Of a DNA stretch of 62,141 nucleotides, positions 18,259 to 55,351 are shown piece after piece. Each line of letters opens with the position of its first letter. Position 1 is the stretch's first letter. The stretch is from a virus. The notes beneath the pieces are model-generated. The model searched no databases. It was not told where the DNA came from and saw only the letters and a list, made by a program, of their open reading frames with translations. Position numbers and translations under genes: made by a program. The DNA lies in IMG/VR virus record IMGVR_UViG_3300020057_000042, positions 1 to 62,141 of that record. One strand, given 5' to 3'.

Positions 18259-18491
18259 AGGCCGTACTCGAAAAGCCTGTGCAGCCTGAACGGATCGTCC
18301 TCACACGCACACGGGTTCGGCTGCTTGTTGCCGAAGTGCTTGATCGGTGACACCTTCCACCTGATACCGGGCAGCCCGATCGGTTCGGTTTGGTCGAGGT
18401 AGGTTGCGACGGCTTGGGGCATCATCACGGAGGGGCAGCAGACACCTACCTTGCCGTTGTGTCGGGCGTAGACGTGAACGAGGGGCGTCAT
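18255..18491 (-). CDS. Hypothetical protein, 78 residues
   Basis: ATG 18491 overlaps the methyltransferase stop. Starts [21 protein letters not shown] and ends in [18 protein letters not shown]; this compact Cys-containing protein is found downstream of DNA methyltransferases in other phages only by impression. Function unknown. Confidence 0.6.
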
Positions 18492-19720
18492 TTTTCGTAC
18501 CCGACAGTCCAGTGGTCGATGCGGGAGCGTGCGATCTGCATGTATTCGTCCTCTCGTTCGATTCCGATGAAGTCGAATCCTCCGAGTGTGGCGGCGATCC
18601 CGGTCGTTCCAGATCCGAGGAACGGGTCGAGGATCGTTCCTCCCGGTGGAGTCACGAGACGGCACAACCATTGCATCAGAGCAACTGGCTTCACGGTCGG
18701 ATGCGTGTTTTTGCTGGGGCCATCAGAGGCGAATAGCGACATGTCGTCGAGTCCTCGGTGGCGTTCGTTACTTGACGTTTTGGCGCAGTAGAAGAAGCGT
18801 GATGGGCCACCGCGATCGTCGTATTCTGCGCCAGTTGCCGTCAGCCCCCATCCTTCCCCACTGGTTCCCGAACGTGGCTTGCCCGACTTACTTACGGACT
18901 CTCCTGATTCGGCATCGAGGATGGCTGCTGCTTCCTCGTCAAGCAGGACATTCGCAGGCCAACGGCCAAGCGGGTTGTTCTCCGCCGCATCAGGACGTAC
19001 TTCGGCGCTTCGCTTATTGCTGCTGTAGTGGAGACTCTTGCCGCCTCCCGGCCCGTTCGGATACGAGTATGTGTCGTCTGTCGAGATCCGCGTCGCGTCG
19101 ATGTTGAGTGCCCCAGTGCCGTGCGCCATCACGTTCGCCGCGACCGTGCCCACGAGAGGCTTACGGGCCAACACGATCGGCTCGTAGGCGGGTTTGAGGG
19201 CCGTCCCGAATCCTTTCCACTGAAGGGCGGCATCCGTAGCGGGAGCGGTGACAGTAGGAACGAACTCGCGCCCGTTGTCCTTGATCCACGATCCTGTCTG
19301 TTTCTGATCCGCCCCAGGGATCATTCGTTTTACTGCCGCCCCGGTCCCGACTATCCTCCGTTCCGCACCTGCCGCCTTGTCAATCGCCTTCGACACGTCC
19401 AGGCTTTTAGGGAATCCGCTCCCGTACATCCACGCGAGCGTGTCACGGACCTCAAACCCCGCGTCCTCTAGTCCGCAAACGAGGCGATGGTAGGTGCGGG
19501 TGCCTCCGAACGCGAGCAGATGCCCTCCGGGCTTCAGGACGCGCAGAACCTCCACTCCCCACTGACGACACCACTCTTGGAAGTCAGCCGGGGTAGCGTG
19601 TTTGTCCCATTCTTTCCCCATGAACTCCAACCCGTAGGGCGGGTCAGTTACGCCCGAGTCGATGGAGCAGTCGGGAAGATCCCGCATCGCCTCCATGCAG
19701 TCCCCGAGGACGAGTCTCAT
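18488..19720 (-). CDS. DNA methyltransferase, beta class (DPPY)
   Basis: 410 residues. Catalytic motif IV TDPPYGLEF (about residues 25-34) comes first and the SAM-binding motif I FLGSGTTGIAA is near the C-terminus, the order of beta-class amino-methyltransferases. DPPY favours N6-adenine. LKPGGHLLAFGG (motif VI region) and the long variable centre (about 120-330) with target recognition are typical of phage enzymes. No cognate restriction enzyme adjoins it, so it likely protects phage DNA or modifies regulation. Confidence 0.88.
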   Translation of the reverse strand: MRLVLGDCMEAMRDLPDCSIDSGVTDPPYGLEFMGKEWDKHATPADFQEWCRQWGVEVLRVLKPGGHLLAFGGTRTYHRLVCGLEDAGFEVRDTLAWMYGSGFPKSLDVSKAIDKAAGAERRIVGTGAAVKRMIPGADQKQTGSWIKDNGREFVPTVTAPATDAALQWKGFGTALKPAYEPIVLARKPLVGTVAANVMAHGTGALNIDATRISTDDTYSYPNGPGGGKSLHYSSNKRSAEVRPDAAENNPLGRWPANVLLDEEAAAILDAESGESVSKSGKPRSGTSGEGWGLTATGAEYDDRGGPSRFFYCAKTSSNERHRGLDDMSLFASDGPSKNTHPTVKPVALMQWLCRLVTPPGGTILDPFLGSGTTGIAATLGGFDFIGIEREDEYMQIARSRIDHWTVGYEK

Positions 19721-36263: not shown

Positions 36264-36401
36264 ATGGCAAAGAAAGAGTCAACCGTCAACGTCCGTGCCT
36301 CCCTTGAAGAGAAGGCACTGTGGAAGCAGCACGCCCCCTACGGGCAGTTGTCCCGGTGGATACGCAGGCTGATCGACGCCGAGATCGCGAGACAGAAGTG
36401 A
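36264..36401 (+). CDS. Arc-like ribbon-helix-helix repressor candidate
   Basis: 45 residues: KESTVNVRASLEEKALWK then QLSRWIRRLIDAEI, the size and order of a minimal RHH DNA-binding protein (strand, helix, helix). ATG 36264 lies six bases after the -10 box. The operators overlapping its promoter also occur in the leftward early promoter at 31956, so it may repress both. The stop overlaps the next GTG. Confidence 0.6.
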   Translation: MAKKESTVNVRASLEEKALWKQHAPYGQLSRWIRRLIDAEIARQK

Positions 36402-37087
36402 TCTCCATACTCATTCCCGTGCTTGCGCGCCCACAGAACGCCAAGCCTGTCGTCGACTCGATCCGGGCGCACACCACCGTCGAACACGAGATCATTTTCA
36501 TCTGCTCACGAGGAGACGTAGCGCAGATCAATGCGTGCTACGACACAGCCGCTTCCATCGTGGTGACGACATGGGAGGCAGGTCCGGGTGACGCAGCGAA
36601 GAAATGGAACCTCGGCTTCGCCCACAGCAAAGGAGAGTTTGTCTTCTGCGCCGCCGACGATGTCGAGTTCACCCCCGGATGGGACACCGAAGCGTTGAGG
36701 GTGGCCGAGAGCACAGGCGCGTCAGTAATAGGGACGAACGATGACGCCAACCCCCTCGTCAAGAGAGGGAAGCACTCGACGCACACGATGGTCAGACGCT
36801 CCTATGTCGAGGAACACGGCTTGACGTGGGACAACATTCCCGGCCTGATCTACTGCGAGGAGTACGACCACCAGAGCATCGACCAGGAACTCGTTCACCT
36901 AGCTAGAGAGCGAGGCATCTGGGCGTTCGCTCGCAACTCGGTGGTGAAGCACAATCACCCGTTTTACAACAAGGCGGTACGCCGCGATTCAACGTACGAC
37001 AAAGCCCTCGCGCACGGCCACGAAGACCTAATGCTGTTCAGGGAGAGGCTTCGTACTCTCTCACCCTCTTCGCGACGGCCTCGGTAG
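36398..37087 (+). CDS. Glycosyltransferase, GT-A type
   Basis: 229 residues from GTG 36398. ISILIPVLARPQNAKPVVDSIR N-terminus and FVFCAADDVEFTPGWDTEAL (acidic DDV metal site) are typical of nucleotide-sugar GT-A folds. The 3' end overlaps a convergent HNH gene. It is the first member of the sugar enzyme set of this genome and lies about 5 kb before the others. Confidence 0.7.
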   Translation: MISILIPVLARPQNAKPVVDSIRAHTTVEHEIIFICSRGDVAQINACYDTAASIVVTTWEAGPGDAAKKWNLGFAHSKGEFVFCAADDVEFTPGWDTEALRVAESTGASVIGTNDDANPLVKRGKHSTHTMVRRSYVEEHGLTWDNIPGLIYCEEYDHQSIDQELVHLARERGIWAFARNSVVKHNHPFYNKAVRRDSTYDKALAHGHEDLMLFRERLRTLSPSSRRPR

Positions 37088-45045: not shown

Positions 45046-45736
45046 AGTCGAGATCCTTTACCTTGCCTGGAACCGTCTGGACTACACGAGCCTGACGTGG
45101 TACGAGATGATGCGCCACACCGACTGGGATCTGGTTACGAACGTCACCGTCTACGACGACGGCTCGCAGGACGGAACCCTGGAGTTCCTCCGAGAGCATC
45201 TTTCAGATTGCCCCGTTCACACCGAGTTGCGGGTCAGCAACCTTCGCAGCCCTCCGGCGATAATGAATCACTTTCTTGCGACCGAGCGGGCACCGTTGTT
45301 CGTGAAGCTCGACAACGACATCGCCGTCCCTTCCGGCTGGCTGAACCGCCTTCACGAAGTGATGGTCGCCCATCCCGACATTGACTTGCTCGGCATGGAG
45401 GCAGGACAAACGGTGGTGCCGGAAGGGAAGCCTTCCTACGGCATTCAGGAAGCGTCTCACATCGGTGGGGTGGGGATGATGCGGACACGGGTGCTTCAGA
45501 ATCTTCCCGAGATCCCCTACCGTGGTCGCTTCGGATTTACCGAACACCAAGATCGTCACCAACTGAAGGGAGCCTGGATCACTCCTGATCTTCTGGTGCC
45601 CCAGTTGGACAGGATTCCCGACGAGCCTTGGAAGTCACTTGGTGTGGACTACGTGAGTCGGGGCTGGCAGAGAGACTGGCCTTTGTACAGGTCCGCGAGC
45701 AGCCCGTACTGGGATTGGATCAAGGAGACACTGTGA
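45038..45736 (+). CDS. Glycosyltransferase, GT2-like
   Basis: 232 residues from ATG 45038. VEILYLAWNRLDYTSLTW, VTVYDDGSQDGTLEF, and LFVKLDNDIAVPSGWL (DND metal site). Family 2-type inverting transferase. Overlaps its neighbours by 4-8 bases. Confidence 0.75.
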   Translation: MPEVEILYLAWNRLDYTSLTWYEMMRHTDWDLVTNVTVYDDGSQDGTLEFLREHLSDCPVHTELRVSNLRSPPAIMNHFLATERAPLFVKLDNDIAVPSGWLNRLHEVMVAHPDIDLLGMEAGQTVVPEGKPSYGIQEASHIGGVGMMRTRVLQNLPEIPYRGRFGFTEHQDRHQLKGAWITPDLLVPQLDRIPDEPWKSLGVDYVSRGWQRDWPLYRSASSPYWDWIKETL

Positions 45737-46482
45737 AGTTGACCGCGATGATGTTGACCAGAAACGAAGCCTCGCGCTATCTGAAGTGGACGATCCCTTC
45801 CCTCCTGTCGTTTTGCGATGAGGTCAGGGTCATTGACGACGACTCCGTGGACGGCACCCACAACATCCTTCGTGACTACGGCTGCATCGTGAAGCGCAAT
45901 GATCGCCCCATGTTTTTCGAGCACGAAGGAAGAGCAAGGAACGCTTTGCTCGACTTCGCCCTTGAAGGCAAGCCGGACTTTCTGTTTGCTGTGGACGCCG
46001 ACGAAATCGTTGCTGATGGGGATGCGATCAGGGACGCCCTGCTCTCGCGCACCTCCGCTTCCGGTGTGTGGAACCTGACGATGGAAGAAGTCTGGAAGGC
46101 CGACGAACGGTTCCTGTACGAGCGAGTGGACGGCCAGTGGGGATCACGGAAGTGCCCGGTGCTGTTCGAGGTTCCCGCCAGGATTCCGTCCAACTGGCGG
46201 ATCGCTGACCGGGCTTTGGCGTGTGGGAGGGAGCCGATGCCGGTGGCGAAAGCGGGTGTGCGTCGTGCTCCCGTCGTCACGTCCCTGTTTCATCTCGGGT
46301 GGGCAAACGAGTCGGAGCGCGAGACGAGATACGACCGCTACGTCAAGCATGACGGAGGGGCGTTCCACGCGAGCGCCCATCTGAACTCGATCATGTTCGG
46401 TGACGAACTCGTCAAACTCGCTCCGCGTGAGTGGCCGAAAGGACTGGATCGCGAAGGGCTACTGGAGAGGATCAACCAATGA
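45733..46482 (+). CDS. Glycosyltransferase, GT2-like
   Basis: 249 residues from GTG 45733. AMMLTRNEASRYLKWTIPS, VRVIDDDSVDGTHNIL, EGRARNALLDFAL and FLFAVDADEIV (DAD metal site) are clear GT2 motifs; the C-terminus has the LFHLGWANESERETRYDRY pattern of phage glycosyltransferases. Last enzyme of the cassette. Confidence 0.8.
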   Translation: MKLTAMMLTRNEASRYLKWTIPSLLSFCDEVRVIDDDSVDGTHNILRDYGCIVKRNDRPMFFEHEGRARNALLDFALEGKPDFLFAVDADEIVADGDAIRDALLSRTSASGVWNLTMEEVWKADERFLYERVDGQWGSRKCPVLFEVPARIPSNWRIADRALACGREPMPVAKAGVRRAPVVTSLFHLGWANESERETRYDRYVKHDGGAFHASAHLNSIMFGDELVKLAPREWPKGLDREGLLERINQ

Positions 46483-47165: not shown

Positions 47166-48929
47166 TTGCAACTACCTTCCAATCGTCGGCGTCCTTCGTT
47201 GACGGCGTCCGCTGCGCGCCCTTTGACGGCTGCGGCTACGCAGATCACGCGCTCGATCGCGAACCAGCAGTATGTCCTTCGGCTCGCGGCACCGTGGCAA
47301 ATCCGGGCGCTGTATTACGCGACCGCGATCCCCGAACTGAAATACGCTTCCAACTTCTACGCTCGGATGCTTCAGAAGATCCGCATTTACCCGGCGATCC
47401 TGCAAGACGACGGGAACCTGAAGCCGATCGAAGAGGGCTTGCCTTTGGAGTTGCTGAACCGGATTCAGGATCCGAGTGGAGGCAGAACGCAGATCCTGAC
47501 GATGTACGGCCAGTTGAAGTTCATCACCGGGGAATGCTATTTGTTCGGACGCAACATCGGGGGCAACGAAAAGTGGTCTGTGGTTTGGCGAGAGGAACTG
47601 CGTTTCGACGAGGCAGGCAAGGTCACGCATGTGATCGCCCCTCAGATCCCGATGGACGTGTTCCGCCTGTCAGACAACCATTACGAGGAGTTGCCTACAG
47701 GCTCGGCGGTTGCATACAAGATGTGGACTTCGTCGCCGAGGTTCTCGGGTTGGCCTACCTCTCCGATGGAAGGCGTGATGGAGATGGCCGAAGAACTGCT
47801 CGTGCTCTCCCAGTCGGTTCACGCGACAGCCACGTCAAGGCTCGTCAAGTCGAAACTGCTGTTTTTGCCTTCGGAGATGGAGCCTGCGCCGCTCGACACA
47901 AACGGCGACGAAGACCCTGCTTCCAGCCCGTACTTGCAGGATCTGACGCAGCACATCGAGAACGCGATCGACAACCCTGGGATCGCAGGATCATTGGCTC
48001 CGTTCATCACGTTCATGGACGGCGACCTGATCGCGTTGATCCGTGACATCAGTTTGCATGACCCGACGACCGACTATCTGGAGAAGGATTTGCGCAAGGA
48101 ATGCATCGAGCGCATCTCCTACGGTTTGGATTTGCCGCCCGAGGTGATCGAAGGAATGTCCGGCTCGAACCACTGGGGTTCGTGGATGATTACCGAGGAC
48201 ATGTGGCGCTCCCATGGAGCACCGATCGCGGAGCAGTTCTGCGACGACATCGGGGAGGCGTATTTGCGCCCAGCGTTGCGAGACGCGGGATACGACGACT
48301 GGAGAGAAGTTGTTGTTGCCTTCGACGCTTCCGCTGTGGTTGTCAACCCCGATCGTTCCAAGGATGCGGATGCGGCGATGGACCGAGGCGAGTTGTCGGG
48401 GTTTGGCTACCGGAAGATGAAGAACATCCCCGATGAGTGGGCACCCTCGGATGAGGAACGGCGGATGTATCTGGCGATGAAAGTCAAGAACAGCACGGGC
48501 GGCGAGATCGCGTCGGACACGGGTGAGAAGCCTCCTGGTGAACCCGGTGACGTGTCGGAAGGCAACAACATGCCTGCCTCGGCGTTCCAGGGTGCTGCTG
48601 AACTGGCGCTGCATCGTTGTCGAGAGCTTGCCGGATCGAGGATCAGGTCGAGGCGCAAATCGTGTCCTGGCTGTCTCGATGAGGTGCAGCACATTGAGAA
48701 CGGCCTCGTCGCCTCAGCACTCGGAGTGGAAGGACTCATTCCCCTCGGAGCACCTGATCCGCTGGAACTCGTTGCCGGTGGAGCGGACTCTTTCAAGTCG
48801 CTTCTGATGGGATGGGGGAATAACGAGTCGTCGGCTGCGGCGGTCGCGAAGATGCTGGAGATGCACGCCGCCCGCACCCTGTTCCATGACAAGCCCCCGA
48901 AGATCCCTGCGAGCCTGGAGATCGTGTGA
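47166..48929 (+). CDS. Portal protein
   Basis: 587 residues from TTG 47166; TTG 47199 is a possible start. Central region with LKYASNFYARMLQKIRIYPA, YLFGRNIGG, YGLDLPPEVIEGMSGSNHWGSW and the helical FCDDIGEAYLRPALRDAG resembles siphophage portals of the SPP1/HK97-like lineage. Forms the dodecameric ring at the packaging vertex. C-terminal 120 residues carry CPGCL. Confidence 0.88.
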   Translation: MQLPSNRRRPSLTASAARPLTAAATQITRSIANQQYVLRLAAPWQIRALYYATAIPELKYASNFYARMLQKIRIYPAILQDDGNLKPIEEGLPLELLNRIQDPSGGRTQILTMYGQLKFITGECYLFGRNIGGNEKWSVVWREELRFDEAGKVTHVIAPQIPMDVFRLSDNHYEELPTGSAVAYKMWTSSPRFSGWPTSPMEGVMEMAEELLVLSQSVHATATSRLVKSKLLFLPSEMEPAPLDTNGDEDPASSPYLQDLTQHIENAIDNPGIAGSLAPFITFMDGDLIALIRDISLHDPTTDYLEKDLRKECIERISYGLDLPPEVIEGMSGSNHWGSWMITEDMWRSHGAPIAEQFCDDIGEAYLRPALRDAGYDDWREVVVAFDASAVVVNPDRSKDADAAMDRGELSGFGYRKMKNIPDEWAPSDEERRMYLAMKVKNSTGGEIASDTGEKPPGEPGDVSEGNNMPASAFQGAAELALHRCRELAGSRIRSRRKSCPGCLDEVQHIENGLVASALGVEGLIPLGAPDPLELVAGGADSFKSLLMGWGNNESSAAAVAKMLEMHAARTLFHDKPPKIPASLEIV

Positions 48930-51592
48930 GCATCGAGGAGTTCAACCGGCTCGTCGAGCAAGCCTACGAGGCTGCGTTCTCGTTCGAGGTGCAGTTGATC
49001 GAGGTGTACGAACGCGCCTACGCACGGCAGGGGGACCTTGCCATCCATCTGTTTGAGCAGGAAACGGGGATGGCCGCTGCTCGGATTGCGGAAAGAGCCT
49101 CGTTGCGCCTGAAGGCAGACGCATGGACACCTCCGGTCATCCAGACTCTGACGAACGGGATGAGCGAGCAGGAAGTCGACGAGGCCAACCGGGTGCGTGA
49201 CGAAGCCGCAGCCGCGATCATGGCGGTGTTCCTGACGCTCGGGATCACAGGTTTCGCGATCGACTTCATGGAGTCCATTTCCCTGCGAGCGCAAGTGAAC
49301 TTCGAGCAGGAGCTTCTGCGGAACCTACGCAAGATCGTGGCTGACTCGTTCGCGGCAGGCAAGACAGCTGAGGAAACGGCAGTGGCGATCCGCGAGACGT
49401 TTACGAACGTCACTCGCGTCTCATCCGAGATGCTTGCGCAAACAGAGTTGACGGCTCTCGTGAACGAGCGCTCGGTGGTCGCTGCTCAGAAAGCGTTTCC
49501 CGACGGCGTCTCGAAAACGTGGTTGAGTGTCGGTGACAACCGGGTGCGAGCAGCCCACGCAGCAGCAGTAGGGCAGACCGTTCCGATTGACCAGCCTTTC
49601 TCGGTGGGCGGGGCGAGCCTCATGTACCCCGGCGATCCCACTGGGCCACTCCGGCTTGTCGCTCGTTGCAGATGTAGGCTTTCGTACACTGATGAGCCAA
49701 CTACTATCACAGCAGCAGCGCGTCCCGACGTGAGCGAACTGGCGATGATCGCTGTCTACCCGACACCAGATGAGCAGGATGCGATCTCTACCTCTGGCGG
49801 GAATCCTGCCGAGACGATGCACTGCACGATGGTTTTTCTCGGCGAGGTAGCGAACATTGATCTTGCGGCGGCAGGACGAGCGGTGGCGCGAGTGGCGAGG
49901 AACACCGAAGCGATGAGCGGCAAGGTCGGAGGCGTCGGAATGTTCGCCGAGGGGCCGGATGGTTTCCCGTCTCTCGCGATCCCGAATGTCTCTGGACTCT
50001 CGATGCTGCGCGTTCGACTCGTCGATGCCTTGGCGGCAGAAGGTGTTGATTTACCTTCCGAGCACGACTGGGTCCCCCACATGACGATCGCCTACCAAGC
50101 AGATGCTTCCCTACCCGACCTTGCGGTGATCGGTTCGCCGCTCACCTTTGATTCTGTGTCGCTTGTTGTTGCCGACGAACGCACTGACTACACGCTCGGA
50201 ACGCTAGTCGCGTCCGCGCAGGAGGATACCCTGATGAGCATGATTCAGAACGATACAGCGCCCCAAGAGACTTCCTACCTGCGTCTCGGGGACAGCCTCC
50301 AGCCAATCCCATACAACACTGCTACCAACACGAATTTCGCGACCATCACGATCTCGACTGACACGACGAACGAGGATGCACGGATGGGAGTGGCTGACGG
50401 AGCGCCGTGGCGTGCCCTGCTCGCCGTCGAAGGCGTCGTGACTGAAGACGGCAGGATGCTCGCCGAGGGATCGTTGACGTGGCGTGACCTTCCTCTCTCG
50501 CTGATGGCTTTGGACTTCACGGGGCCGGGAGGGCATGAGGGCGCGAGAGTCGCAGGGAGGATCGACAACATTTGGCGGGACGGCAGCGAGGTGTGGGGCG
50601 AAGGTGTGTTCAACACCGACGAGTTCGGGGCGCACATCGAAGAACTTGTCGCGAACCAGTCTTTGCGGGGCAACTCGATCGACCCGGCTGTGCTCGCCTA
50701 CGAATACCGCCATCGTGAGACGGGAATGGTTGTCGAGGGCGACGACCTGATGGAAGCGATGATGAACGACCATCCTCTCGTCACCGTTTTCCTGGAGGCG
50801 ATCATCATGGCTTCCACTGTCTGTAGCACCCCTGCGATCGGTGAGGCGACGATCATGCTCGCTTCCGGTGTGATGCGCACCGTCTGGTTCGAGGAGCAGA
50901 ACCGCGAAGTGATGACGGCTTCAGCAGCGGGGATGGTTCCGCTGCATCCTCCCTCTTCATGGTTCGCTGATCCGAGGCTGAAAGAGCCGACAGCCTTGAC
51001 GATCACGCCGGAAGGCAAGGTGTTCGGCCACGCGGCCCTCTGGAACTCCTGTCACATCGGGGAGCCATCGGGACCGGGCGTGTGTGTGCCGCCTCCTCGT
51101 TCGGGAATGAACTACGAGATTTTCCATCATGGCGCATGTCAGACCGAGGAAGGACACGACGTGGTGGTGGGCCAGTTGACGCTCGGCACCCTTCATGCGG
51201 GTTCCGATCTTGGCTGGAAGGCGACGATGGAGCACTACGAGCATTCGGGCCTTGCCTTCGCCGACGTTCACGCTTATGAAGACCGCTTTGGGATCGTCGT
51301 CGCCGGTGCTCTCAGGCCGGACGTTCCTGCGGAGAAGGTCAGGGAAGCGAAAGCGGGGGCGCTGAGCGGCGACTGGCGGCAGGTGATCGGACGCGGCCTG
51401 GAGTTCCTGGCGGCGCTTGTCGTCAACGTGCCGGGGTTCCCGATCCCGCGTCCTTCCGCTCACATCGTCGCGTCCGCCTCGGGTGAGGAAGAGATCGTGT
51501 CGCTTGTGGCTGCGGGGATGGTGGAGCCGTGCGACTGCGAGGAACAGATGAGTGACCGCGAGTTCCTCCGCAAGATCCGTGCTCTCACCTAA
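48926..51592 (+). CDS. MuF - 2H phosphoesterase - capsid maturation protease fusion
   Basis: 888 residues, GTG start overlapping the portal stop (GTGA). Residues ~1-255: MuF/SPP1 gp7 head protein, with TWLSVGDNRVRAAH and YPGDP before a CRCRLSY end (199-254). Residues ~265-430: a 2H phosphoesterase with HCTMVFLG (His299-Thr301) and HMTIAY (His385-Thr387), 86 residues apart. Residues ~490-888: capsid maturation protease of the actinophage type (EGVVTEDGRMLAEGSLTWRD, LRGNSID with the Ser, later SGDWR). The first and last parts are often fused in actinophages; the inserted enzyme is unusual. The whole protein enters the capsid, so the enzyme could be delivered into the host. Confidence 0.85.
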   Translation: MSIEEFNRLVEQAYEAAFSFEVQLIEVYERAYARQGDLAIHLFEQETGMAAARIAERASLRLKADAWTPPVIQTLTNGMSEQEVDEANRVRDEAAAAIMAVFLTLGITGFAIDFMESISLRAQVNFEQELLRNLRKIVADSFAAGKTAEETAVAIRETFTNVTRVSSEMLAQTELTALVNERSVVAAQKAFPDGVSKTWLSVGDNRVRAAHAAAVGQTVPIDQPFSVGGASLMYPGDPTGPLRLVARCRCRLSYTDEPTTITAAARPDVSELAMIAVYPTPDEQDAISTSGGNPAETMHCTMVFLGEVANIDLAAAGRAVARVARNTEAMSGKVGGVGMFAEGPDGFPSLAIPNVSGLSMLRVRLVDALAAEGVDLPSEHDWVPHMTIAYQADASLPDLAVIGSPLTFDSVSLVVADERTDYTLGTLVASAQEDTLMSMIQNDTAPQETSYLRLGDSLQPIPYNTATNTNFATITISTDTTNEDARMGVADGAPWRALLAVEGVVTEDGRMLAEGSLTWRDLPLSLMALDFTGPGGHEGARVAGRIDNIWRDGSEVWGEGVFNTDEFGAHIEELVANQSLRGNSIDPAVLAYEYRHRETGMVVEGDDLMEAMMNDHPLVTVFLEAIIMASTVCSTPAIGEATIMLASGVMRTVWFEEQNREVMTASAAGMVPLHPPSSWFADPRLKEPTALTITPEGKVFGHAALWNSCHIGEPSGPGVCVPPPRSGMNYEIFHHGACQTEEGHDVVVGQLTLGTLHAGSDLGWKATMEHYEHSGLAFADVHAYEDRFGIVVAGALRPDVPAEKVREAKAGALSGDWRQVIGRGLEFLAALVVNVPGFPIPRPSAHIVASASGEEEIVSLVAAGMVEPCDCEEQMSDREFLRKIRALT

Positions 51593-52250
51593 AGTCGTTT
51601 ACCGCATCCAGTCGCACCCTTCCCGCAGGCTGCTGCGTGAACGCCTGCTTGCAGGACTCCCAGAATGCAACGTGCAGGTTGTGGAGCACGAATCCGATCC
51701 CCCTTCGCCCTGGGCTGGTTACAAGGCGTGTCTCCAGTCTCTCGCTGACGAAGACTTCACGCACGCGGTCGTGATCCAAGACGACGGAATCGTCTGCAAC
51801 AATTTCCCGCTGGCGGTAAGCCGAGTCATCGAAGCGGTGCCCGACAATCCCGTCTGCCTGTTCCTGCCGATGGTGTCAGCGACGAAACGACAGGCGATGC
51901 TCGCAGGCAAAGCAGGACACCATTTCGTCGAGCTTCTCCCTCGCGGCTTCATGCCTGTCGTCGGTGTCATCTGGCCGAAGAAGCAGGCGCTCGACTTCCT
52001 CTCCTGGTCAGCCACCTCCCCGGCTCTCGTGCGAAGAAACGGCGAACGAATAGAGCACCGCTCTGACGACGCGATGGCACACCTGTTTGCCAAAGTCACT
52101 CGCGTCAAGGTGTTCGCGACAATCCCGTCCCTCGTTCAGCATCCCGACGACGCCCCCTCCACCATCTCTCGCAAACCCGGAGGACGCACAGCCCTTTTCT
52201 GGCATGGAGATAACTGGGATCCGTTGACTGTTGACTGGGTTTCCCCATAG
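51552..52250 (+). CDS. Glycosyltransferase-like protein
   Basis: 232 residues from GTG 51552 (GAGGA 8 bases upstream); GTG 51579 is an alternative. VVYRIQSHPSR, then PSPWAGYKACLQSL and THAVVIQDDGIVCNNF (QDD acidic pair) look like a GT-A fold of the type found in phage virion-glycosylating enzymes. It lies between protease and capsid genes, which suggests the capsid or tail is a target. Confidence 0.55.
   Translation: MTASSSARSVLSPKVVYRIQSHPSRRLLRERLLAGLPECNVQVVEHESDPPSPWAGYKACLQSLADEDFTHAVVIQDDGIVCNNFPLAVSRVIEAVPDNPVCLFLPMVSATKRQAMLAGKAGHHFVELLPRGFMPVVGVIWPKKQALDFLSWSATSPALVRRNGERIEHRSDDAMAHLFAKVTRVKVFATIPSLVQHPDDAPSTISRKPGGRTALFWHGDNWDPLTVDWVSP
51805..51818 (+). repeat. Dispersed 14-bp element (imperfect)
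   Basis: TCCCGCTGGCGGTA, one base off, inside the glycosyltransferase-like gene at 51552. Confidence 0.45.
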
Positions 52251-53680: not shown

Positions 53681-55351
53681 ATGGACACCTTGTTTCCCGC
53701 AGTACCCGAGGATCTCGCCTCCCTTTCCGACGAGGATCTCACTTCCCTCATCGACGAGCACGTCGCCGGTCGCCTGATGATCCGCGAGCAGAACGCCGAA
53801 TTCCTCGGCGACCTGAACGCACTCCAGATCGTCGAGCAGGCCCGCGTCGGCAAGACGCAGCACGAAGCTCTTCTCGCCTACAAGGAGACGCTCGTCGAAG
53901 CCGAGCAGAACTTCGAGGCCGAGATCGCTGCCCTCACCGAGATCGAGGCAGTCGTCGAGGAGCCGGTTGCAGAACTGGCCGCAGACATCGAAGAGGACGA
54001 CGCCCCTGTTGACGGTGACGGTGACGCAGCCGTTGTCGTCGAGGAAGAGGTTGTTGTCGCTTCCGCCCCTGTCCTTCGTCGTCCTCCGGCCCCGAGCCGC
54101 GAGCGCGTCGGCGTCACAGCGGAAGTCGAGACGGGTGCTGTTCTCACGGCAGCCGCGAACCTCGAAGGCGTCCAGGCCGGACAGCCGCTCGATCCCTCCC
54201 ATCTCGCAAAGATCCTGCTTCAGACATCGAAGCGTCTCGGCAAGCCGTCACACGCTGACGGCGGACGCGAGGAGCGCTACCTCCTCGCATCAGCCCAGTA
54301 CCGTTTCCCCGCCGAGAGGATCCTGACGGGCGACATCGAGTCGAACGCCCAGAAGATCCGTTCGCTCCGCAACTCGGAAGGCAACTCCCTCGTCGCTTCC
54401 GGTGGGCTGTGTGCTCCCCTGACACCGCTCTACACGATCCCGCAGTTCGCAACGAACGCCCGCCCCGTCAGGGATGCGCTCGTCAGCTTCCAGGCGGATC
54501 GCGGCGGAGTCAACGTCCCGGTTCCCACAACCCTCGCTTCGGCAGCGGATGCGATCACGGTCATCAGCGAGGCCGACGACGCTCTCGGTGGCACGTTCGC
54601 CACCAAGTCGTGTCTCGATCAGACGTGCCTCTCGTTCGTCGAGACGGCAGTGACGATCATCAGCCACTGCCGCGAGTACGGCAACCTGAACGCAAGGGCG
54701 TGGCCGGAGTCGATCGCCTTCGAGAACGAACTGACGATGGCCGAGCACGCCAGAGTCGCAGAGGGCTTCCTGCTCGACCGGATCAAGACCCTCTCGATCA
54801 ACGTCACGACTGCGAACACCTACTCGACGACCAACGACCTGATCTACGCGATCACACGGGCCGTCTCGGGAATCAGGTATCGGCTTCGCACGTCGCCGGA
54901 CTTCCGCTTCCGGGCGCTCCTGCCGGTCTGGATCGCCGACATGATGGTCAGTGACATCTCGGCAACCCAGTTCGACAGGTTCGTCTCACGCGAGCGCGTC
55001 AGAGGCATTCTGCGTGAAGCAGGAGTGGAGCCGTCGTTCTACCTGGACACGCCGTCCACGGGAACCACGCAGGGCTTCGCCGACGAAGCAGCCGGTGCCC
55101 TCGATGACTTCCCCGACGAAGTGCAGTGGGCGCTCTTCCCCGAAGGCGCGTTCATCCACGTCGACGGCGGTAGTCTGGATCTTGGGCTTGTTCGTGATAG
55201 TACCCTCAATAGTACCAATGACTTCCAGTTCTTTGGTGAAACTTTTGAGAACGTGGCGCGTCTTGCGCCCGCCCAGGCAGCACTCTGGGTCACTTCCACC
55301 GTGTGCCCGAGCGGCGAGTTCCCGTCCCTGACGACGGCGCTTTCCTGCTAG
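53681..55351 (+). CDS. Major capsid protein with N-terminal scaffold domain
   Basis: 556 residues, SD GAAGGAG. Residues 1-165 are acidic and helical with an acidic Val-rich tract (DGDGDAAVVVEEEVVVAS), as in HK97-like delta/scaffold domains that the protease encoded at 48926 would remove. Residues 165-556 have the HK97-fold pattern (RPVRDALVSFQADRGGV, then RTSPDFRFRALLPVWIADMM). Cysteine-bearing end. Confidence 0.85.
   Translation: MDTLFPAVPEDLASLSDEDLTSLIDEHVAGRLMIREQNAEFLGDLNALQIVEQARVGKTQHEALLAYKETLVEAEQNFEAEIAALTEIEAVVEEPVAELAADIEEDDAPVDGDGDAAVVVEEEVVVASAPVLRRPPAPSRERVGVTAEVETGAVLTAAANLEGVQAGQPLDPSHLAKILLQTSKRLGKPSHADGGREERYLLASAQYRFPAERILTGDIESNAQKIRSLRNSEGNSLVASGGLCAPLTPLYTIPQFATNARPVRDALVSFQADRGGVNVPVPTTLASAADAITVISEADDALGGTFATKSCLDQTCLSFVETAVTIISHCREYGNLNARAWPESIAFENELTMAEHARVAEGFLLDRIKTLSINVTTANTYSTTNDLIYAITRAVSGIRYRLRTSPDFRFRALLPVWIADMMVSDISATQFDRFVSRERVRGILREAGVEPSFYLDTPSTGTTQGFADEAAGALDDFPDEVQWALFPEGAFIHVDGGSLDLGLVRDSTLNSTNDFQFFGETFENVARLAPAQAALWVTSTVCPSGEFPSLTTALSC

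Follow-up and report, generated by a model that had tools for sequence, protein, structure and literature searches.

A virus genome of 62,141 bases (an IMG/VR record classed as linear, hereafter called the window) carries between its portal gene and its major capsid protein (MCP) gene a gene for one long chain, in which a MuF head domain, a 2H phosphoesterase domain with a conserved active site and a capsid protease region follow each other (Table 1). The 2H domain is bracketed by copies of a short motif that is enriched in the linkers of head proteins and putatively represents the cut site of the head protease. We consider it about an even chance (probability roughly 0.5) that the product is a head polyprotein releasing a packaged 2H enzyme, which would be delivered to the next host as a counter-defence; packaging, cutting, injection and substrate are the predicted parts of this reading.

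Table 1. Features of the head gene region of the window (positions in the window; residues count from the start of the polyprotein).
Feature	Position	Strand	Remarks
Portal protein	47166..48929	+	TTG start as listed; phrog_776, 5.9e-78
Putative portal motifs LTASA, LTAAA, LVASA	47199-47213, 47223-47237, 48705-48719	+	Motif positions
MuF-2H-capsid protease polyprotein	48926..51592	+	888 aa, GTG start
MuF domain, residues 134-252	49325..49681	+	PF04233 (Phage_Mu_F), E 7.9e-7, 30.3 bits (cut-off 29.6)
Putative motif ITAAA, residue 261, MuF/2H border	49706..49720	+	Motif position
2H phosphoesterase domain as modelled, residues 262-430	49709..50215	+	PF13563, AlphaFold2, fold searches
First catalytic motif HCT (His299, Thr301)	49820..49828	+	In HCTMVFLG; conserved in homologues
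Second catalytic motif HMT (His385, Thr387)	50078..50086	+	In HMTIAY; conserved in homologues
Putative motif LVASA, residue 427, 2H/protease border	50204..50218	+	Motif position
Prohead-protease-like domain, residues 487-660	50384..50905	+	phrog_21470; candidate catalytic His537, Ser584
Putative motif MTASA, residue 663, between the two protease-region domains	50912..50926	+	ITASA in L014
C-terminal protease-associated domain, residues 677-852	50954..51481	+	Invariant SGDWR; phrog_18402 (head maturation protease), 1.8e-56; alignment A2
Two putative motifs in the C-terminal tail, IVASA (847) and LVAAG (860)	51464..51517	+	Motif positions
Major capsid protein (MCP)	53681..55351	+	phrog_777, 1e-58
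Putative MCP motifs	54053-54067, 54143-54157, 54389-54403 (SLVASGGLCAP)	+	Motif positions

Domains and active site of the polyprotein

The GTG start of the gene overlaps the stop codon of the portal gene and is aligned with the starts of the corresponding genes in the contigs L014 and L103. The initial annotation had described one chain with a MuF domain, two HxT motifs whose histidines lie 86 residues apart, and a protease; the Pfam and PHROGs matches and the motif positions agree with this description. Glycosyltransferase-like genes are located within or beside the head genes (51552-52250, 36320-37087 and 45628-46482), the first of them overlapping the end of the polyprotein gene. An N6/N4 DNA methylase gene (PF01555) was found at 18488-19720 on the minus strand. 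A megablast search with positions 40001-62141 detected no near phage.

In the whole protein, PF13563 (2_5_RNA_ligase2) matches residues 295-395 at E 9.7e-11, above the cut-off, and in a profile search the 2H domain matched PF13563 at 7e-12 and LigT at 3.8e-6. The equivalog family for RNA 2',3'-cyclic phosphodiesterases, TIGR02258, was matched at E 1.5e-7 with 31.5 bits, below its cut-off of 65.7. An AlphaFold2 model of the domain, built from 12 sequences, reached a pLDDT of 92.4 and a pTM of 0.87. Its closest solved structures are Thermus thermophilus TT0787 (Z 17.1), the Deinococcus radiodurans CPDase (16.7) and Escherichia coli LigT (about 15), followed by Usb1 (13.6), AKAP18 (13.4), the rotavirus VP3 phosphodiesterase (12.9) and MHV ns2 (12.3). 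Acb1 (10.9) and the poxvirus cGAMP phosphodiesterase (9.9) are weaker matches. A sequence search of the PDB with the 2H domain gave weak matches alone (best E 0.35). The domain thus combines two HxT/S motifs with a 2H fold, as is characteristic of the 2H superfamily, and judging from the fold match H299 and H385 should face one cleft.

H299, T301 and H385 are invariant in 81 of 81 non-redundant homologues, 74 of which have T or S at the position of T387, the first HxT motif having been required by the search pattern in part of this set and the second lying outside the pattern; some homologues have C or A instead of the last Thr. The catalytic residues are invariant despite only about 20-50% identity among the 2H domains. 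This is the pattern expected of an active enzyme under selection, and activity is predicted from it. An HxT pair spaced 60-110 residues arises in 7.6% of shuffles of the polyprotein. The pair alone therefore proves little, and the case for the 2H domain is made by its profile match, its fold and its conservation among homologues; chance as the origin of the pair was set aside on the profile and fold evidence. Taken with the conserved tetrad, PF13563, the pLDDT and the Z scores of 15-17 to LigT and CPDase bear out the earlier proposal that residues ~260-435 form a 2H phosphoesterase.

Residues 489-868 are matched by PHROGs families that comprise head maturation proteases and related proteins. 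In the alignment columns of 20 relatives H537, S584 and D586 are invariant, the first two being candidate catalytic residues. Pfam S78 itself gave no match to the protease region of the window, proheadase_HK97 matched weakly at the equivalent place in phage MellowYellow (E 0.12), and in hhalign the C-terminal domain aligned with HK97 gp4 over a short stretch at a probability of 2%.

Relatives and behaviour of the 2H domain as a cassette

A scan of viral contigs with the whole polyprotein as single query found no relative. Relatives were retrieved with the alignments A2 and A5, the first 2H alignment being too divergent as a query. The Arthrobacter phages Tank, Wilde and MellowYellow share the order of MuF, 2H, protease and C-terminal domain as well as both HxT motifs, with 30-34% identity; in their records the gene is named capsid maturation protease (in some relatives MuF fusion, in Tank also portal protein), while the 2H domain is unnamed. 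The MuF-2H-protease order with both motifs was also detected in the IMG/VR contigs L032, L092/L096, L097, L161, L167, L168/L171, L172 and L173, and in the Streptomyces genomes L179, L183, L191 and L205. In the latter, where the loci are probably prophages of cultured strains, the portal gene adjoins and in most of them the MCP gene, too.

Other relatives carry the 2H domain before MuF, before or behind the protease region, or as a stand-alone protein. In Gordonia phages (Zitch, Stultus and relatives), whose genes are annotated as 'RNA ligase' or head maturation protease, 2H likewise lies in the protease-region gene beside portal and MCP, but behind the C-terminal protease domain and with MuF as a separate gene. 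Among 56 proteins retrieved by 2H, Pfam recognised MuF in 14, portal families in 13 + 2 + 2, an XkdF-type protease in 5, an S78 protease in 5, capsid families in a few and an ADP-ribosyltransferase (ART) exoenzyme in 2, families that may overlap within one protein. Fusions of 2H with head proteins are thus recurrent, and two of them include an ART exoenzyme domain as well, which is a point for delivery.

The two ART-containing chains (L050:1968-4112 and L112:2182-4092) combine 2H, the exoenzyme (PF03496) and MuF, that is two candidate injected enzymes per head protein. In the 2H-MuF gene of L067/L068 and L099/L100 the MuF domain is apparently split by an intein (PF14890).

The nearest whole-protein relative, L014, has a protease region 59% identical to that of the window and no 2H domain. 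The nearest 2H domain (56% identity) is encoded in L095 (4538-6570) by a gene of its own, which follows immediately on the protease gene and overlaps its last base (5989); this arrangement represents a split version of the fusion. Since 2H is absent from L014 and a separate gene in L095, it behaves as a cassette, and its position outside the MuF chain in L095 indicates that the fusion is not needed for 2H function. In the 2H tree the MuF-2H-protease label needs six changes, at least four of them forced by starred branches. The best 2H matches in bacterial genomes come from actinobacteria; most others resemble ordinary cellular LigT-type genes, which the tree separates from the phage set by a branch of weak support (57).

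Alternatively, 2H might act in the producing cell during head assembly, for instance on trapped RNA or nucleotides, or might be a structural insert, in either case without injection. Most of the fusion partners recognised for it serve in head assembly, and many relatives lack a clear cut site to free it. Against such a role, the catalytic residues are retained, the domain occurs twice in one chain with an ART exoenzyme domain, and close relatives with the same head genes do without 2H, which is therefore dispensable for assembly. We regard this explanation as quite improbable.

A candidate cut motif in head proteins

The motif that we propose is S-[LI]-[VT]-A-[AS]-[AG], read in the linkers as [ILVMF][VTI]A[AS][AGS]. 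Besides its copies in the polyprotein, it occurs at both ends of the portal protein of the window. The copy at the MuF/2H border is also present in MellowYellow, Wilde and L103; in L014, which lacks 2H at this site, it aligns with the one motif there, LTASA. At the 2H/protease border MellowYellow carries SLTAAG.

In the head proteins of seven phages 68 motifs were observed compared to 5.1 expected from shuffling, whereas their terminase, tail and other proteins contained 11 (12.5 expected); for BruhMoment, Megan and others the motif was counted in annotated genes. As the pattern had been drawn from the window and the seven phages, it was tested on held-out contigs. The 73 proteins from contigs unused in defining the pattern contained 178 motifs (16.5 expected), 168 outside domains (7.9 expected) and 10 inside (7.5 expected), counts which overstate the evidence because related proteins are non-independent; the contrast between linkers and domains holds regardless of kinship among the proteins. 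Held-out portals showed 19 motifs (3.0 expected), mostly close to the N-terminus, and held-out MCPs 28 (2.9 expected); in MCPs the motif marks delta regions. Behind the C-terminal domain of the relatives 95 motifs were found where 2.2 were expected, and the linkers upstream of this last domain, its conserved trailing copies excluded, still contained 63 (4.9 expected). In loci with this protease, 2H is flanked by 9 motifs upstream (0.95 expected) and 10 downstream (0.57 expected), with none inside (1.5 expected).

These statistics suggest that the motif is the cut site of the head protease. In the mycobacteriophages Omega and LittleE the capsid delta domain is cut, and the mature LittleE MCP has the N-terminus DLDRNNGTGGYAVP (PMC3706429). 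The sequence SLVAAGGWCAP is found near the cut position of both capsid proteins (PMC3706429); the MCP copy SLVASGGLCAP of the window lies near the same position, as placed by eye without an alignment. Searches with the MCP yielded nothing by which the cut site could be checked.

The motif might also be a short docking or scaffold-binding peptide common to head proteins. The cut-site reading is based on sequence statistics, and several copies keep a conserved place beyond the C-terminal domain, where a cut would have little effect. A docking peptide fits less well with copies that separate unrelated domains or are found in the MCP delta region and at portal N-termini, or with the sequence near the LittleE and Omega capsid cut position, and we think it unlikely.

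The initial annotation had further suggested that the protease frees a 2H enzyme packaged in the head. An intact 2H domain, a protease region in the same chain and putative sites on both sides speak for this, but strict motifs occur on both sides of 2H in only 4 of 34 loci. Release by cutting is therefore uncertain in many relatives, while the sites are well placed for it in the window and in MellowYellow.

Proposed delivery and possible substrates of the 2H enzyme

As the intact 2H domain is bracketed by apparent protease cut sites, it is probably packed in the particle and delivered with the DNA. According to our preferred reading, that of a packaged and released enzyme, the MuF part would take the chain inside the procapsid, close to the portal, as suggested by the MuF family, and the prohead-protease part would cut portal, capsid and polyprotein linkers at the proposed motif. 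Cutting would free a catalytically intact 2H phosphoesterase of about 166 residues (17 kDa) inside the head. The enzyme would then accompany the DNA out of the head and, once in the new host, immediately attack 2',3'-cyclic, 2'-5' or 3'-5' phosphodiester bonds, most probably to weaken a defence; nucleotide signals or the RNA ends left by defence RNases would be fitting targets. The internal proteins of T4 provide a precedent. Like Alt, they are head proteins that undergo processing by the head protease and are injected; one of them, IPI, inhibits a restriction enzyme (PMC9026906). Unlike the polyprotein, IPI and Alt are encoded by separate genes, have N-terminal targeting peptides and are unrelated in sequence.

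Regarding the substrate, one possibility is an RNA-end enzyme, i.e. a LigT/ThpR-type 2',3'-cyclic phosphodiesterase or a Usb1-like RNase, which would process ends after defence RNases have cut tRNA or mRNA. The best profile and fold matches, PF13563, TIGR02258 and LigT, belong to RNA 2',3'-cyclic phosphodiesterases, and an RNase role was offered by Iyer et al. 2017 (PMC5512222). The LigT/ThpR enzymes resemble the window domain in fold (Z 15-17) and HxT motifs but are cellular and mostly stand-alone. The TIGR02258 score is below the cut-off, and the scan of a subset of the window ORFs revealed neither an RNA ligase nor a kinase. In this specific form the proposal appears somewhat unlikely.

The other possibility is that the delivered 2H enzyme specifically cleaves the cyclic nucleotides of CBASS or Thoeris before the alarm is raised, similar to Acb1, the phage anti-CBASS nuclease known as a counter-defence (PMC9117128). 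The initial annotation had drawn this parallel, of which the shared fold and HxT/HxT tetrad stand (Z 10.9). Kinship by sequence is not supported: the Acb1 family PF23474 gave no match to the window domain even at E<=10, although two relatives retrieved by 2H match it weakly (best 1.7e-4), and the LigT and CPDase structures are nearer. Acb1 is also a stand-alone protein with 69 residues between its histidines (H44, H113) compared to 86 in the window domain. Our analyses do not tell CBASS or Thoeris signals from RNA 2',3'-cyclic phosphate ends as substrate, and we consider a specific Acb1-like action rather unlikely. The fold favours RNA ends and the published idea favours signals; we give both kinds of substrate about equal weight.

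That idea was published by Iyer et al. 2017, who described 2H domains fused to MuF or portal proteins and suggested that they act as RNases or degrade defence nucleotides (PMC5512222); the Iyer 2022 survey again predicted that such proteins are packaged and injected to counter SMODS, cyclic-nucleotide and CRISPR signalling (PMC9503650). A packaged, injected 2H enzyme on MuF or portal proteins which degrades defence nucleotides is thus an already published prediction. With MuF (PF04233) and an effector-type enzyme (PF13563) in one chain, the window protein is of the MuF-fused polyvalent type and resembles those proteins, for which packaging, injection and the degradation of defence nucleotides or RNA have been predicted. 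It differs from them in that its chain includes the capsid protease and candidate cut sites bracket its 2H domain. Iyer et al. reported that polyvalent proteins carry assemblin-like peptidases C-terminally, with processing as their probable purpose, and a fusion of MuF and capsid protease has been described in Microbacterium cluster EG phages (PMC7302621). In a literature search, outside which most subscription journals lie, we found no published description of a MuF-2H-protease chain with bracketing cut sites or of the motif S-[LI]-[VT]-A-[AS]-[AG]. This motif, enriched in head proteins and bracketing 2H, is what is new here.

More broadly, and as a tentative and rather doubtful proposal, a large group of actinobacterial phages might possess a head polyprotein with interchangeable cassettes, in which enzymes such as 2H or ART are inserted next to MuF and the capsid protease or between the two, have a shared cut sequence on their flanks and are freed in the head for immediate delivery as counter-defence. 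If this holds true, such phages would bring a ready-made enzyme against defences that act within minutes, before phage genes are read, and the proposed cut sequence would allow cargo enzymes to be spotted between cut sites in many phage genomes.
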